From the NCBI GenBank assembly GCA_947561715.1, contig OX387199.1:10235001-10299000 (forward strand): a DNA stretch of 64,000 bases, in the 5' to 3' direction. Each line of letters opens with the position of its first letter. Position 1 is the stretch's first letter. The notes beneath the pieces were generated by a model. It was not told where the DNA came from, did no database searches, and saw only the letters and a program-made list of their open reading frames with translations. This document shows positions 3,001-45,731 of the stretch, piece after piece. Both the position numbers and the translations under genes were made by a program. Origin of the DNA: Ascidia mentula (Eukaryota; Chordata; Ascidiacea; Phlebobranchia; Ascidiidae).

Positions 3001-6000
3001 TTTAACATTTTTGCTGAATTTGTAATTTTTTAGATTCTTCACTCTGTGCTGCTTGCCATTGAACCTTTCATTGTTGAATACAACGCAATATTGGAGCAAA
3101 CTATTACCTCCACAGTGCTGGCCCACCGTTCAACTACCAAACTGGCTTACATTCTTTCTACGATTTTTGTTGAAGTTCTTAGCAAAGGTTTCTGTCCACC
3201 ATCTGATGTTGAAGAGGAATTATCAGGTGTGATTCCTCTTTGATTAGAAAACTTGTTTAAGGTGTAATGCTTTGGAATTACATTACACCAACTTTCAATC
3301 TGATCTCCTCATGTTCATTCTCACTTCCTGTGCAACAACACATATATTTTGTATGAATGCCTGAACAGTGAACTTAAAATCTAACTAAATATTTTTGTGC
3401 ATGTGGTTCCAAAATGTTTTGATGCTGTTAGGTCTCAATGTCTATGCTAAGAAAATTGTGATGTTTTTTCAGCCAACAAATGGAAGTTAAGTACTATAAT
3501 TTTGTCTAGCACTTCTACAGCATCAAAACATTTTGGAAAAATTTTGTCTAGTAGTTCTACAGAATGGGTTCTAAAAAAACTTGATTGATTCCAAATTGCA
3601 CATGAATTCATTTCTATACAACATTTGCCAGGTGATAAAGGTGAACTGAAAGAAGTGGAGGATGCTGGTATAGGGGAAGGTCAGGGTGCAAAGGATGTGA
3701 GTGACCAAATAGAGGAAGAAGATCAGGTTAATATTTTTAATTTCTATATGTGACTTTATAACTTCTGTTTTAAATCCTAAGTTGTTTGCTTCAAAAGGTT
3801 TTCAATCGAAATGTAAATTTTGCCTGTACTTCCAGGCATCATCAGTATTGCCAAAAAAACATAAAACAAATCAGTTTAAAACTGAATATTTATGTTCATG
3901 GGTGAAATATATGTGACATTTAAAAACCTTATGAAGGAACAACATAGGATTTAAAACAAGAGTAGTTGTTTATATCCCAAATGTTGTATTTAAAACAATC
4001 GGTTTAGTGTTAAAGTCTTGTCCGAACATGCGCCTGTTTATTTTTAAACTAAGGTTGAGGATACCCCTGGCACAGAATCAAAGGATGATGAACACGATGA
4101 CGAGGAGGACATTCCTGCAGAAGACAATGCTATTGAAATGTCAGAGGACTTTGAGGGCAAATTACACGACCCAGAAAAAGCAGGAGACGATGAAAATGAT
4201 CAGGATGAGAAAAGTGATGATGACATTGAAGAAGTAAGTTTTAAATATTTGATTTGTATTCTTTCTTTTTGGTTGATTTGTAATGTTTATTAAATTTGTT
4301 GAGGCAGTGGAAATTTGTGTATATTTTTGTGGTATATCATATCAAAAAAAGTCTTGCAGTTTATTTTTTTATTATTTTTTCTTTGAAGAAAGTTGTATCA
4401 GCCAATAAATAAAAAAATCAGCAAGTTTTTTTTTTCTTGCAGGAATTAGATAAGCAAATGGGAGAGCTTGGTGATGATGCTGATGCAGACAAACTGGATG
4501 AAAGGATGTGGGGATCTGATGACGAGGAACATGAAGAAGAGGACATCAAAGATACCAAAGAGGAAAAGGGTGCTGGAATGGATGCTGTGAGTTTCTTTCT
4601 CCTCACCTTATTTAATAAATTATAATTATTGCAAACTTGTTTATAAACCAGCACTCATTCTCAATATATTGCTCAATATTTCCAGGGACAAAGTGAGTTA
4701 GCTGCCAAGGATGAACAGATTGGTGATGAACAAGGTGAAAAAAATGAAAAGGAAAAGGAAGAAGAGGAAGCAGTTGATGAGAAAAAACTTGGTGATCAAA
4801 GTGAATTTGATCCAAACGAACGGTATATAAGTTTTTAATAACCTTGTGTTTATGTAAATATATATCTAATATATATTATGGCTTGTGTATAAGCTGCAGA
4901 CAGATGGCCACTGTTTCGACCTAAAAGGTCTCATGAAACACAATAGAGCAGCCGTCTGCCCGATCGACATTTTCAGGTTTATACAGAAACTCAATACAGT
5001 TATCAACAAACAGCATGTTTCAGTGATCCAGTGTAGTTTCTATTCCCTTTTTCATTTTGTGGTGAATTTGTGTTAGTGATGACCATCATGAGGAGGATGC
5101 CAAGGACGCAACTGACGAAATGGAAATACCTGAAGATCTTAAACTGGATGAAAATGAAAATGATGATGGTAACTTTTGAACTAAAGTATTTTTTGCTTTC
5201 ATGAACCCGTTTTTGGTTATTAGGGGAAGAGGAAAATCACACCGGGCAAGATGATCTGGGTGCTATGGAAACAGAGGAGAACACAGTCGATGGCATGTTT
5301 TACCTCTTTGTTAAATGACCCACCTAATTGTTAGTTTAATGTAACAGTATTCAATTAAGATTTGCTGAACTATTTTAATGTGCAACTAAACTGCACTTAT
5401 TAATTAAAGAAAACAATTTGCAGAACCTGATGATTTGGAAAATGATTCAAAGGAGGATCAGACACATGATGAATTGGAAGAAAAAGATGAAAATATCACC
5501 GATGATCATATGGTGGAAGAAATGCAAGATGAGACAAACTTACCATCACCAGAACAAAGTGATGTGGATGATGTTGATGAGAAAACGTCACAGGAAAAGA
5601 ATGAAGAAGCTCAGTCGAATGAAGTTGATGAAAACAAGGAAGAAAACAAGGTTAGGATATTAGTCTTTGATTTTGCGACATTTATTACAGAACAGATGGT
5701 ATGTTCAATGCATCATGTTTCAAGTAGTTAATGTGTGTTATGTTTTGTTAGGATGGTCAGGAAGATATTCCCTCGCAAGGAAATGAACTTCCTGTGGAGG
5801 AAGATGTAAACACTGATGAAAATACAAAAGACAGAACATCTAGGTTTGTTTGGTCACATGTATTATTTGATATGCAAAACTCCCTCTTAAAAACAAGCTC
5901 CGTCGGTTGCCCAAAGATGTTTAAAGCAAGGGCTGTTTTTTTTTCAGAAAACAGCCCATTGCAACAGAGGAAAATGTTCAACAAAGTGAAAGTGCCACGG

Positions 6001-35880: not shown

Positions 35881-38181
35881 TTACAATTCACCCTTGGCTT
35901 CTGAAGTTTTGTGGAAGTATTTTAGCTTGTCTTTGGGATCCGGAATGATCTGAAACGAATTACACTTATAAATACATTGACAGTTTCAAAACCAAAAAAC
36001 CTAAGGTAATAGAACGTCCAGGGCGTCGATTCTTGCTTTTAAGTATTCGATACGCGACGCCACTGTTTGACACGGGCGGCCTGTAAAAATGTTACCGTTA
36101 TGCGGTATGACAAACAAACCAACTCCATTGTTGTCAACCAAAGTCCACAAAATGAATTACTACTGTAATTTACTACAGTTTTCTGTTTTTGAAGATTGGG
36201 CGCCAACGATTTGTTATTAGTTATTACCACCAGTTTCTACGGCAAAAAAATATTAGTCAATTTTTTGCCGTAGAAACTGGTGGCAGAAGTAGTTTGGAGT
36301 GATGGGTGCTTGCACAAGTCGTTTAATTGCAAACCGCAAAAAATGAATTGGGGGAGAGTTTTTTATTTTTAGTCATCATCAAACAACAGCATTCAACTGG
36401 TCGGTTACGTAACGTTAAACGCGTAGTGCCATTATCGTTTGCTATTTTACGCTCCAAATCGCCCCACTGCGTAGGTCCTTGCTTGGCGATCACAGCTAAC
36501 GTATCGCGATCATGAGGTTTTCAGGCTTGGCAGCCAAAGCAATGCAGCCTGGCTGGATCAGCCACATTTTGGTTAAAAAAAATCGACGCCCTGAGCACCT
36601 ATATGTAGTATGTTTTGCAAATAGATCACAATACTTTATATTAATACTGATGGGTTGTACTTCCCAGAAATATGAAAAATCACAATAATTAATTCTTCTC
36701 AAAATACCCTAAATAAGATTTTAAACCCCCAAGAAAACAATTCCAAATTTCATGTACATTCATACCACTCTCATTGTACTTTAGTTAACATATTGTGTTG
36801 TATAACCCTACAATTTGATACATAAACATTGGTAATCTTACAGTATCTTTTCCTGGTTGCCAACCAGCTGGACAAACTTCACCATGCTCATCAGTGTATT
36901 GAAATGCTTGCACTAACCGAAGAGTCTCATCCACAGACCGACCAACTGGGAGATCATTCATAGTAATCTGCCTTAAAATGCCTTTGGCATCAATTATGAA
37001 CAGACCCCTATAAAAACAGATATGTTTTGTTCTTTTAAATGCTTCCCGGATGCAACCTTTTTATGTGAATGTTACCTAAGAGTATGGCCTAAGTCTTCCA
37101 ACAATACCCCATAATCTCTTGATATTTTGTGTGTGAGATCAGACAAGAGTGGAATATTCATTTTGCCAAGTCCACCTTCTGATCTGGGTGTATTAATCCT
37201 GTAATGGAAAATATATTTGCAAATGCAACCAATGGTCACCAAGGCTGTTCCAAGTCTGCACATACCAGGCCAGGTGGGTAAAATGTGAGTCAACAGAAGC
37301 TGCCACCACCTCAGTGTTGATTTTTTTAAACTCTTTAATTCGATCAGAAAAGGCAATTATTTCCGTTGGACAAACAAAAGTGCTAAAAACAAACATAACA
37401 TTAATACTGCTTTAATCAACAGAGATGGAGCCTTGTATGACACTTACAAGTCAAGTGGGTAAAAGAAAAGGACCAGATATTTTCCTTTGTATTGACTCAA
37501 ATTTAATGTGGTAACTTCTCCATTTACAATAGCTGATGTCTCCCACTCAGGTGCTGGCTTTGAAACTGCAAAAAAATATTATTGAATCCCATAAAATTGC
37601 AGCAATAAATATATAATTATTATACACACAATAAGTATTAGCATAAATTTCCCTTTCCAAAAAACACCTATTAAACAGGAAAAGCATACCAGCTAACTGA
37701 CTCTGTGCTGCACTACCAATACCTGGAAACAAACACAATTTAAAAAAGGGTCACCTTATTGCACTGTTTAATCAATTACACAACTTACTACTTAACCAAA
37801 CTAAATGTCACCAAATTACAACCTTTGCATATTGCAATCACTTGGTCTTAATTGCCACACAAATAGCTAACTCACTACTATGCAAAAATACATGGATTTG
37901 CTGGCAAAGTTAACCCTCACCTGAACTGTCTCTGTATTAAACTAATATTTATACATACTAGTTAGGCAATGTAATCATTTTAACAGTTTTTCTTTTATCT
38001 GCTAACTCCGCTGAAGATATTTTTGTAAAATGAAGCACTTACTTTGTGCTTTAGTTGACTGGAGAAGATGACTGGTGTACGTTGGCCAAAAAACACCAGG
38101 AAATTGGTTGGCATTTTGATTTTCGACACATTCTGAGACCCAAATCACACCAAATAACACCACAAGTAGTTTTCCGATCAT
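35881..38181 (-). CDS. PRDX4: Peroxiredoxin 4, secreted/ER 2-Cys peroxiredoxin
   Basis: PRDX4 reduces hydrogen peroxide in the ER lumen and passes disulfides to PDI. Seven minus-strand exons fit: 38043-38181, 37690-37722 (33 nt), 37448-37565, 37266-37382, 37076-37198, 36842-37007 and 35881-35949. The N-terminus [20 protein letters not shown] is a signal peptide, which sets it apart from cytosolic PRDX1/2. An N-terminal extension follows, then the thioredoxin-fold core ([36 protein letters not shown] with the peroxidatic Cys). [19 protein letters not shown] holds the GGLG motif of sensitive peroxiredoxins, and [14 protein letters not shown] holds the resolving Cys. The C-terminus ends SEAKGEL, similar to a KDEL-type ER retrieval signal. 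Its largest intron (35950-36841) contains a nested repeat. Confidence 0.95.
36227..36283. repeat. Perfect 23-bp hairpin
   Basis: CCACCAGTTTCTACGGC followed by AAAAAA at 36227-36249 is exactly mirrored at 36261-36283, with an 11-base loop. It sits in the PRDX4 intron inside the TIR-bounded unit and may be the core of a smaller fold-back element. Confidence 0.7.
36458..36570. mobile_element. Second copy of the tRNA-SINE body
   Basis: CGCCCCACTGCG at 36458, then GATCACAGCT, then CAGGCTTGGCAGCCAAAGCA and TGCAGCCTGGCTGGATCAGC, matches the block 17739-17850 of the fold-back SINE over about 110 bp at high identity. The tRNA-like head is not present here. Confidence 0.65.
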
Positions 38182-39950
38182 TCTAAGCGGTTAATAAACC
38201 TACAAAAGTTTTTGTTACATTATATGTCCAGATAGAGTGTTTGTATATATGCAATGCTCATGAAAATGAAATAGCAAAAAGATTACTACGAGTATGCAAG
38301 TTTAGGTATCGAAAATACACATTTTGCATTGTTTGCAATTATATATCCGCTCTCCATATTCAAAAAAATAATAATTAAATTACAGACAGCTCGTTTTGTT
38401 TAGACTTCTTCAAACGCTGCTTGTGCTTTTTCGGTTGCTGCCAATAACATCTGTGCAGTCATGCGGAAAACTGCGACACGTGGAGCATTACTAACTCGCT
38501 ACTTGCGCTAGTTGCTCTTGCTTTTGTTTCAAGTGCATTGACCATGTCCTGTTATGATGCGCAGGTTTTTATGCTTCTCTTGTAAACATGAATACAGCAA
38601 ATCTACCAGGCCCTGCAAAGACAGTTAATAAAGACAAAACTTTTTATTCCACGTGTTATTAAAGTCTATGAACGGCATATGGCCCGCACGGCATTCCACA
38701 TACAGTTGCCTGTTAGCTTCACAACGGATATAATAAGTCACTCCGCATGATGATTTTATTGAGGAAGTGGATCCAATCACTAAAACTGCCAATCCTGTGG
38801 TAGCGGAGCAACGTTTGTGCCTTATTTGTAACTTTCTGGTTTTTAGTTAACCTTGTAGCAACACGCATGTTTCCCTACTTAATTCTTCACACATTTGGAA
38901 CACAGACGGACCGAAGGCTGTAGACGGTGTTAGGCTTTCTGGCAGAACTCGCACAGCCTTTTGGCATCCGGCTCGACGACAGACCTTTTTTTCATTGTAA
39001 CTTGTTAAATACCCGTTCGCACTTTACTCGGCCAGTTGGTTATCTCAGTTCGTTGTCATTCTCTGTCATTTTACTCTGCCGCCCAACTAGTCTCGGTCAC
39101 TTAACTAAACAACTGGTTCCGAACGTTTCTTAAATAATGTCATATTAACGATTTTACTGGCCCTTTTTCATATTTTACTGAAACCCTATGTAGTGTATCA
39201 GGGGTGGCCAACGCGGCGATCTTTCAGCTTCATCTGGTCGATCGCGTCTGATTTTGTGTTGACTTTACGAAACAAGCAAAAAAACATATTTTTTGACCAA
39301 ATTCACCGGGAAAATCAAAAAATCTTGTATTGACACATTATACTGAAATTTTGGGTGTCAGAACACAACAATACTCAACCTCCCTTGCAAACTCGATCAA
39401 AGTAACAATCATGTGGGGAAAGTGTTTACACAAGTTCGATTCCACCTTTTAATATTTGCATCGCCTTTGAATCGATTGGGTATAAATAAAAAGTTTTGTC
39501 TATTGTTCGCTGACAAGCTATGATCACCCCTGCAGTAAGTTGTATGATGACCCAACAAAAAGTGTTTTCGAAACACACAAAAACATTTCTACCATAAAAT
39601 ATTTTTAATGGATTTGGAAGGAATGTCTGGAATTAATTTAAAAGGCTACTGGTTAAATATAACTAAAGTTAAGGATCCGGAACTTGAACAAACACAATAA
39701 ACGAGTAGTTTTGTCGTATACTCTCTCAAAAGTCTGTAAATGTCGAGACAGGAAAAAAAACAAATCAGTTCAATCACACAACCCATAACAAACAACATTT
39801 TGTAGAGTTACAAAAATTGCAAACTTAGTAGCGTTTTGGTTGATGCACTTATACAACTGCTACATCCTTCCAGTTGTAATTGCAAATCAGTACCCGCAAA
39901 AAGTGCACTTTAAAATTACGACCTGTAGATAGTATTAAATAAAAAATATT
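38182..39950. other. Intergenic: PRDX4 promoter and spacer with a hAT-like MITE
   Basis: No gene is supported. 38182-38400 should hold the PRDX4 promoter. A 68-codon frame at 38927-39133 has no recognisable domain. 39199-39535 is a transposon-like unit listed separately. 39770-39950 is similar to the region downstream of the second ECI1 copy (43660-43940), so it belongs to the duplicated block. Confidence 0.5.
39199..39535. mobile_element. hAT-like MITE
   Basis: The unit opens with CAGGGGTGGCCAACGC and closes with GATCACCCCTG, giving at least 8 bp of exact terminal inverted repeat of the CAGGGGTG type usual for hAT elements. The flanking 8-mers TAGTGTAT and CAGTAAGT agree at 5 of 8 positions. 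It is about 337 bp and has no ORF. Confidence 0.6.
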
Positions 39951-41570
39951 CTACTTCTTTCTATTTTTGAGGTTTTGCAAATATTTGCCAAGGACCTTTT
40001 GCACTTTTGGTTTTTGCAACAACCAGACAAAGTTTTCAATATCTTCTTCCCTCTCCGACTGAAGTTTCTCCACATGTGTCCCACGAAATTGTTTTTTGGT
40101 AATTGCAAAGGCAGGTTGTGGAATTTGAATCATCTTCTGCAGTTGTGCCATCGCTGTAGGTGCGACTTCATCTAATTTTACAACTTCATCTACCAAACCT
40201 AAATGTTCAGGGAAAGGAAAAAATGTCCTAAAACAGGTTAACTACAATTTGAATTTTCATATTTAAATTTTTAACTTTTAATGATAAGTTGGTTTACATT
40301 GCAATTATTCAAGACATGCTTTTATGTAGTTGAATACTTTAAGAAGAACAGGGTCATAAATGTCTAGACTGACCTATGCCTAAGGCCTGGTCAGAGGTAA
40401 ATAGAGTCCCATTTGCCAGTTGCAACTCAGTCTGTCGAATGCCAACTGTGGATGTCATCAAGTATGTGAAAAAGTATGGAGGAGATATACCAAGTTGTGT
40501 TGCAATTAAACCTATTGTTTTTCCTTCCATCATCACTCTGAAAGCAGTATAAAAACTATGGAAACAAACTCAAAAAAATATATCTACCACACACAGGACA
40601 GATTAGCAACCTTTACCCAACAACTAGAACTAGTTACTTATATATTAGCACATATACTTGCATATAAATTAGCATACAATTTTTTTTATAATATGCGGGA
40701 GTAAACCTGGTGTATTTTTGCCTAAAATACATTTACAAAGCATAACTTTGATACAATAAAACATGCACCTATAATCGCACATAAGTGACAGGGCACATCC
40801 ACCAGCTGGAGCATGCCCATTAATTGCTGCAACCACAGGCTTTGGGAAGTTGTATGTGTCCAAATACCATTCTTGAACAGCTCTCCAGAGGTCACCAAGC
40901 TGTGCATCGGATCTTTAGACAAATACTATTTTCAAAGAAACTTTGTTGCATCATCTTCATCAAGGGGTTTGCTAAATGCAGCATAATTGCACATTGTTTA
41001 AATTTGCAAGTTTCAAAATACCTTTAGTTGCAATATGTGGTCATTTGTTTGAGCTCAAGTCAACACAATAAACAAAACATTGTATTTTTATGGACAGATT
41101 CATACTTGTTAAACATTTCTAGGATATTCAGGCCTGCAGAGAAAACTTTTCCCTCAAATTTTGATGTTATCATTAAACCAGTGACAGAGGAATCTGCAGA
41201 AAGTTCCTTCATGGTATCTGATATACTGGTCAAGAATTCCCCACTCAAACTATTGACCGGAGGCTCACTGAGAGTCATGGTTGCAATACCTGATAATAAA
41301 AACTAGTTAATTTATGTATTGGAGCTTGGAGGTTATATTAAGACTGGATGAGTACAGATTTAAAACACAGACATTGATTTTTACCAGTCCATTTCTAAAT
41401 GGTTGTTTTAAAATTATTTAAATTTTGTATGAGTTGGGTTGAAAACTTTTAACTTTACCTGTGTCTGGTTGATGCTCAACTACAACATTTCCTCTGCCAA
41501 ACCATCTTGACAAAGTAGTGTGTTTTGTTTTGGAACGTAATAAGCAACGACTTAGAGCACTTATTAACAT
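39951..41570 (-). CDS. ECI1: Enoyl-CoA delta isomerase 1, copy A (catalytic Glu missing)
   Basis: ECI1 shifts 3-enoyl-CoA to 2-trans-enoyl-CoA in mitochondrial beta-oxidation of unsaturated fatty acids. Five minus-strand exons splice in frame: 41459-41570, 41106-41289, 40769-40912, 40374-40537 and 39951-40198. The N-terminus MLISALSRCLLRSKTKHTTL is a likely mitochondrial presequence. The crotonase fold follows: PPVNSLSGEFL, FSAGLNILEMF (oxyanion hole), then INGHAPAGGCALSLMCDYR. Where ECI1 proteins have GLNETQLG, this copy reads GLIATQLG, so the catalytic Glu is Ala and the preceding Asn is Ile. The rest is intact, with no stop or frame break, and normal length (about 290). It looks like a non-isomerase paralogue or a pseudoenzyme. 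Copy B lies directly upstream on the same strand. Confidence 0.93.
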
Positions 41571-43939: not shown

Positions 43940-45731
43940 CTACTTCTTTCTATTTTTGAGGTTTTGCAAATATTTGCCAAGGACCTTTTGCACATTTGGT
44001 TTTTGCAACAACCAGACAAAGTTTTCAATATCTTCTTCCCTCTCCGATTGAAGTTTCTCCACATGTGTCCCACGAAATTGGTTCTTGGTAATTGCAAAGG
44101 CAGGTTGTGGAATTTTAACCATTTTTTGCAGTTGTGCCATCGCTGTAGGGGCGACTTCATCTAATTTCACTACTTCATCAACCAAACCTTAACATTCATT
44201 AAGAAAAGATAAAACAAAACTTCCAAAACTAGTAAACTACAAGTTTTAATAAATTGATACAGTGATATACATAAATTTATATGCACATAGGGTGAACAAA
44301 CTATTACTGGGGTGTCAGAAATTATTATGAACTTGACAGATGGGCCAATATACGTTCAACACGGACAAGAAGTGTTTACATTACAGTTTGTAATCTAACC
44401 CATAAACAATATTTACCAAAAACAAAATAGATGTGCTCTAACATTAAAAAAACAGTGCCTTCAGACAACACTAAATTAAGCAAAACTGGCGGGTAGATTA
44501 AAAATCCAAAGGGTCAGTGTTGTCTGCTTTAGTTGGATCTAAACTAACTGGTGTATCAAGTCAACCGCACCTATTTTCAAGGCCTCATCAGAAGGAAATA
44601 GAGTTCCATTTGCCAGTTGCAACTCAGTCTGCCGAATACCAACTGTGGATATCATAAGGTATGTAAAAAAGAATGGAGCAGATATACCAAGTTGTGTTTC
44701 ATTCAAACCAATTGTTTTTCCTTCCATCATTACTCTGAAAGCAATGAAATGTTAAATATCTCCACCACACACCTAACAGATCTAGCCATCTTTAAGTATT
44801 CAGAGATTTTTATATTTAAAGGTATGGATGCAACAGACAATAACACACCCCCAAAAACATATTTGATTTATGCACAAGTGAGCCTAGTATATTTTACTTG
44901 ATTTCTAAAACATAACTGTAGAACAGAACATCCACCACCACCTGTAATCGCACATAAGTGACAGGGCACATCCACCAGCTGGAGCATGCCCATTAATTGC
45001 TGCAACCACAGGCTTTGGAAAGTTGTATGTATCCAAATACCATTCTTGAACAGCTCTCCAAAAATCACCGAGCTGTGCATCAGATCTTTAAACACAAAAA
45101 ATGTTGTTGCACTATCTTCACCAAGAACTTTATGAATGCAGCACAGATACATACACATACATGTAACATACGCAGAATACAGGCAGCAATGCCATAAATT
45201 AAACAAGATGGGCATATATATACTTGTTGAACATTTCTAGGATATTCAGGCCTGCAGAGAAAACTTTTCCCTCAAATTTTGATGTTATCATTAAACCAGT
45301 GACAGAGGAATCTGCAGAAAGTTCCTTCATGGTGTCTGATATGCTGGTCAAGAATTCCCCACTCAAACTATTGACCGGAGGCTCACTTAGAGTCATGGTT
45401 GCAATACCTGATAATAAAAACTAGTTAATTTATGTATTGGAGCTTGGAGGTTATATTAAGAGTTAAAAGTTAATTTGGGCATTGAAGGTTGTATTTGTTC
45501 AGATTTAAAATTTATACCCTTAATCTTTTCTTCCATATTGGAAGAATGTGTTGGCACATGTACAACATCTGCCGATTTTCATTTTGTAAGAGTTGGGTTG
45601 AAAACTTTAACTTTACCTGTGTCAGGTTGATGCTCAACCATAACATTCCCTCTACCAAAACATCTCGCAGCCAAAGTTACACACTCCGTTTTTGAACGTA
45701 ACAACCCACGACTTAATGCACTTCTCAACAT
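43940..45731 (-). CDS. ECI1: Enoyl-CoA delta isomerase 1, copy B (catalytic Glu kept)
   Basis: This is the sister of the copy at 39951-41570. Five exons fit: 45617-45731, 45224-45407, 44942-45085, 44571-44734 and 43940-44187. The presequence starts MLRSALSRGLLRSKTECVTL. Exon 2 encodes the same residues as in copy A across MTLSEPPVNSL to ILEMFNK. This copy has GLNETQLGISAPFFFTYLM, keeping the Asn-Glu pair with the catalytic Glu. The C-terminus (SEREEDIENFVWLLQKPNVQ) is nearly the same as in copy A. The fourth donor site is GTGCGG, a usable but less common sequence. By residues this should be the active isomerase. Confidence 0.95.

Follow-up and report, generated by a model that had tools for sequence, protein, structure and literature searches.

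Crotonases catalyse hydration, hydrolysis, isomerisation, dehalogenation and decarboxylation, according to PMC3660561, which also describes the roles of two glutamates in enoyl-CoA hydratase, Glu144 and Glu164. In PaaG, an isomerase, only one Glu is catalytic, which the authors regard as being in line with an isomerase active centre (PMC4498308). Replacement of such a Glu by Ala has been described for two related enzymes, both assayed as hydratases and not as ECI1; in rat MFE1 E123A the hydratase site is inactive and the crystals hold unconverted 2E-enoyl-CoA (3ZWB; PMC10988713), and DmdD E141A shows ~1/88,000 of the kcat/Km for methanethiol release with ester hydrolysis undetected (PMC3660561). 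The crotonase fold can also double as a protein-interaction platform, as in the CDYL-type crotonase-like domains, but these are ECI2-like in sequence, nuclear and reported to have crotonyl-CoA hydratase activity (PMC6385973), which sets them apart from the gene described here.

The ECI1 gene pair of Ascidia mentula

In the assembly of Ascidia mentula (195.8 Mb across 79 contigs) two genes for mitochondrial enoyl-CoA delta isomerase 1 (ECI1), copy A and copy B, were found in tandem, both on the minus strand of one 23 Mb contig; positions given below are those of the window, the whole stretch of 64,000 nucleotides that was analysed. ECI2 catalyses the same reaction as ECI1 and the Glu of its QSPEG motif is catalytic, and in ECI1 we take the Glu of the motif GLNE to be the isomerase base, moving the proton between C2 and C4. 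Copy A (39951..41570, minus) runs from ATG to stop through five exons and encodes 283 aa. Copy B (43940..45731, minus; exons 45731-45617, 45407-45224, 45085-44942, 44734-44571 and 44187-43940) likewise has five exons from ATG to stop, encodes 284 aa and carries an intact GLNETQLG. The mitochondrial code is the ascidian one (table 13), with AGA/AGG giving Gly in conserved COX1 motifs such as MIGGFGNWLLPLM, as expected of a tunicate.

Searches of Pfam and PDB with copy A gave a match to PF00378 (ECH_1) of 161.8 bits (gathering cut-off 27, E 2.5e-47), and the closest structures were rat ECI1 1xx4 (E 7e-56) and human ECI1 1sg4 (E 2.4e-54), followed by 3lke (E 5e-25). ECH_2 was also listed for both copies. 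A short Peptidase_S49 match, just over the cut-off of 24.9 bits in copy A (26.8 bits) and just under it in copy B (24.6 bits), was taken as cross-matching of a shared fold. The two copies are identical in 262 of 284 aligned columns (92%), and copy A is ~41% identical to the ECI1 proteins of 1sg4 and 1xx4.

A six-frame search of the genome with copy B gave 14 matches, ten of which are the exons of copies A and B and four distant crotonases; among the best candidates scored in this search there was no third ECI1 copy to serve as an outgroup. A bacterial outgroup candidate consisted of a single distant match, 23% identical, and was left out of the analysis.

Of the possible polyadenylation signals, AATAAA is absent within 500 bases 3' of the stop codon of copy A, where ATTAAA is found at 39609, and copy B has AATAAA at both 43658 and 43567. 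The acceptor of the last intron in copy B is the less usual TTAAG (window 44188-44192), the equivalent in copy A being TTTAG. Downstream of the gene pair, peroxiredoxin-like exons were recognised by eye at 35900-38180 on the minus strand.

Loss of the catalytic glutamate in copy A

In an earlier, sequence-only reading the segment 40374..40537 of copy A was stated to have lost the catalytic Glu, with GLIATQLG in place of GLNETQLG in copy B and human ECI1. This was borne out, and the segment is exactly exon 4 on the minus strand (164 nt). The sequence in rat ECI1 (1xx4) is GLNESLLG, and human ECI1 (1sg4) is identical to copy B in this motif. Codons 158-159 of copy A (40501..40506, minus) read ATT GCA (Ile158-Ala159) where copy B (44698..44703, minus) has AAT GAA (Asn159-Glu160), a change of two adjacent codons with one transversion each, so that the catalytic Glu of GLNE is present in copy B (Glu160) and replaced by Ala159 in copy A, and the preceding Asn by Ile. 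Asn159 and Glu160 of copy B are invariant in a three-row alignment of copy B, rat and human ECI1, and since the human and rat proteins carry Asn-Glu like copy B, copy A is the copy that has changed. Judged from its sequence, copy A is a natural Glu-to-Ala duplicate of ECI1; no other natural ECI1 lacking the catalytic Glu was met in a limited literature search.

The same exchange, Glu to Ala in the aligned column, is found in rat MFE1 E123A (PDB 3ZWB), which, unlike copy A, was made by engineering a peroxisomal enzyme with two functions and is not a natural gene. Copy A scores higher against the mutant 3zwb (64.6 bits) than against the wild type 3zw8 (62.3 bits), while for copy B the order is reversed (58.8 against 61.5 bits). 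These scores fit an alignment of the lost Glu to the MFE1 Glu123 column, which is supported in this way if the two chains differ only there.

When analysing positions that are acidic in other crotonases no substitute for the lost Glu appeared. In ECI2 (human 4u18, 2f6q), which has close relatives in the Ascidia mentula genome, the acid of QSPEG lies eight residues further on, and this position (+8 from the ECI1 Glu column) is occupied by Pro in both copy A and copy B. At the columns of Glu144 and Glu164 in rat ECH, aligned by motif, copy A has Ala in both places, and an ECHS1-like protein of the same genome (encoded on C69 and, we assume, correctly named by its motifs) reads GGCEL and QPE. The sequence part of the earlier claim of an apparently catalytically dead copy is therefore upheld by the lack of an acid at two other columns that are acidic in the crotonases compared. 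Because the proton-moving Glu is replaced by Ala we propose that copy A no longer isomerises, and by analogy the loss of activity in the mutants of related enzymes also suggests that isomerase activity would be lost.

The sequence-only reading had also mentioned a different crotonase reaction as a possible new role. Copy A would then run a reaction that does without this Glu, for instance decarboxylation, in which Tyr168 might serve as a new group, and crotonases are indeed mechanistically diverse (PMC3660561). Tyr168, gained from Phe nine residues after the lost Glu, is the sole polar group gained in this neighbourhood. However, no acid has been gained, the ECH Glu144 column and the ECI2 +8 position hold Ala and Pro, and exons 2 and 3, which encode FSAGLN and PAGGC, contain only 0 and 1 amino acid differences. 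Apart from the gained Tyr168 there is thus little in favour of this suggestion, and we consider it improbable.

Integrity of the copy A gene

The reading frame of copy A is open over 283 codons with neither an internal stop nor a frameshift, and all four introns are GT-AG, the borders of exon 4 being ...tttcag/A and G/gtcag. Exon 1 (41459..41570, minus) encodes an Arg/Lys-rich N-terminus with no acidic residue within positions 1–28, which by eye is presequence-like. Exon 2 (41106..41289, minus) and exon 3 (40769..40912, minus) encode the FSAGLN and PAGGC segments, which we take to supply the oxyanion hole; both segments are identical in copies A and B, and FSAGL and PAGG are present also in rat and human ECI1. 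The earlier description of copy A, with an intact frame, intact splice sites and retained oxyanion-hole residues, agrees with these observations, and the presequence that it names is a candidate one by eye.

Exon 5 (39951..40198, minus), encoding the C-terminal part, is in frame only together with exon 4, and skipping of exon 4 results in an early stop, so that exon skipping was ruled out as an alternative. As exon 5 is under constraint (see below), exon 4 with its 164 nt is predicted to be translated. No alternative or mutually exclusive exon 4 was found by tblastn in the 64 kb window, where the three hits with exon 4 were copy B, copy A and a chance hit (E 1.5).

Divergence between the copies and selection on copy A

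Exons 2–5 contain 13 residue differences between copies A and B, distributed by exon as 0, 1, 8 and 4. Seven of these could be polarised with rat and human ECI1 and all seven are changes in copy A located in exon 4 (N158I, E159A, A166P, F168Y, P194T, E197Q and K200G, copy A numbering), and besides the Asn-Glu pair exon 4 carries six more differences from copy B. At five of these six sites copy B matches rat or human. The remaining six differences are unpolarised (one in exon 3, one in exon 4 and four in exon 5) and none was assigned to copy B. Only sites that rat or human ECI1 conserves can be polarised, which applies to none of the five differences outside exon 4; the location of all assigned changes in exon 4 is therefore partly due to the fact that only exon 4 changes fall at such sites. 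None of the silent changes could be polarised. Exon 1 contains nine further differing columns, all unpolarised, and one gap column in exon 1, with no rat/human residue, was excluded from the polarised count.

An error in assembly or base calling, or a rare allele of copy A, could in principle produce such a sequence, which rests on a single assembly. Against this, two adjacent codons and six more residues of exon 4 differ together, the introns of the two copies are strongly diverged and the genes lie in tandem within one 23 Mb contig, which makes an artefact very improbable.

The pairwise dN/dS between the copies is 0.15 (dS 0.28), or 0.12 with exon 4 left out, and for exons 1–5 the values are 0.13, 0, 0.04, 0.25 and 0.11. 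Simulations were started from the copy B sequence with omega 0.03 for copy B and the rate scaled to silent differences, using simple models with branches split equally, no nucleotide outgroup and omega values up to 1. Under these models an omega of ~0.1–0.3 fits exons 2, 3 and 5 in copy A and values of at least 0.5 were rejected (P 0.002), while exon 4 fits 0.3–0.5, with 0.2 borderline (P 0.046) and both 0.1 (P 0.002) and 0.75 (P 0.012) rejected. Neutrality across the whole copy A branch was rejected as well (0/400 simulations per rate). Since exons 2, 3 and 5 exclude an omega of at least 0.5, the substitution pattern indicates that copy A was maintained as a protein-coding gene during most of its history; the selection check suggested in the sequence-only reading showed exons 2, 3 and 5 to be under purifying selection. 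Of the marks of a pseudogene, neither a disabled frame nor a neutral pattern was found over the branch as a whole.

Exon 2 and the final 54 bases of intron 1 are almost identical in the two copies (41106-41343 and 45224-45461), resembling gene conversion, whereas other intron sequence differs strongly between them. Clustering of silent differences (30 of 231 eligible codons) was not significant, neither by the longest gap (P 0.20) nor by the sum of squares (P 0.08). Gene conversion was rejected as a source of the apparent constraint on this ground, and also because it would erase silent and amino acid changes equally, and the simulation rate had been set by those silent differences still present.

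A more recent loss of constraint has to be considered separately. Copy A could be a duplicate that was freed from selection only recently and is now turning into a pseudogene, with the active-site changes as early decay after a long period of selection. Late neutrality is tolerated by the simulations for ~0.2 of the branch (P 0.06–0.18) but not for 0.3 (P 0.01–0.03), and neutrality over the last 10–20% is compatible with the five differences in exons 2, 3 and 5 (P 0.06–0.57). Decay should, however, scatter its changes, and 8 of the 13 differences are found in exon 4, which holds 54 of the 246 codons (binomial P 0.0024); nor is there a stop, a frameshift or a broken splice site anywhere in the 283 codons. 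Exon 4 also has a slight excess of silent differences (10 of 28, P 0.068). The ratio of amino acid to silent differences, 8:10 in exon 4 vs 5:18 in the other exons, does not differ significantly (Fisher P 0.18). We regard early decay as a tentative explanation that deserves attention but is rather doubtful.

Related genes and a possible function of copy A

Copy B and the ECI2-like genes of the same genome could cover the isomerase reaction, a point in favour of decay; with these genes present fatty-acid breakdown need not suffer if copy A has become inactive, and this redundancy favours both the decay and the retention of copy A as a pseudoenzyme. The ECI2-like genes include a cluster on contig C70 near 2.04 Mb with four exons of the catalytic region, the ECI2 Glu being present in three. 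The sequence of the fourth (G000:C70:2043013-2043183; L025:9014-9184, minus) is MGI--DAFSLYIFPKIMG; it is two residues shorter than its neighbours, has an Asp close to the position of their ECI2 Glu, and may represent another isomerase paralogue whose catalytic acid has changed. Two further tandem copies (G000:C67:20840743-20844744; L023:1743-1844 and 5644-5745, minus) were named by motif and are presumably dienoyl-CoA-isomerase-like.

The reading that we prefer, with a probability of about 0.5, is that copy A is a retained pseudoenzyme, a translated mitochondrial protein with the ECI1 fold that would no longer act as a delta3-delta2 isomerase; it draws on sequence comparison and on the analogy with the mutants. 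Copy A would then be expressed and, being 92% identical to copy B, would probably still fold and trimerise, binding enoyl-CoA through its unchanged oxyanion segments with no turnover. Most likely it would join copy B in mixed trimers as a subunit without catalytic activity, or serve as an enoyl-CoA binder, and the high identity of the copies makes the mixing of A and B subunits plausible. A more specific and unlikely version of the retained pseudoenzyme makes copy A a partner dedicated to copy B. The dead sites of mixed trimers would then capture and hold enoyl-CoA esters, and in this way tune unsaturated fatty acid flux or buffer enoyl-CoA in the mitochondria of tunicates; as the trimer partner of copy B, copy A would be a naturally occurring equivalent of the Glu-to-Ala trap mutants.

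Regulatory subunits have repeatedly arisen from catalytically dead copies that persist next to active ones. In Ascidia mentula a live copy B, 92% identical, adjoins copy A, and a single pair of proteins therefore suffices to examine both binding without turnover and the mixing of subunits.
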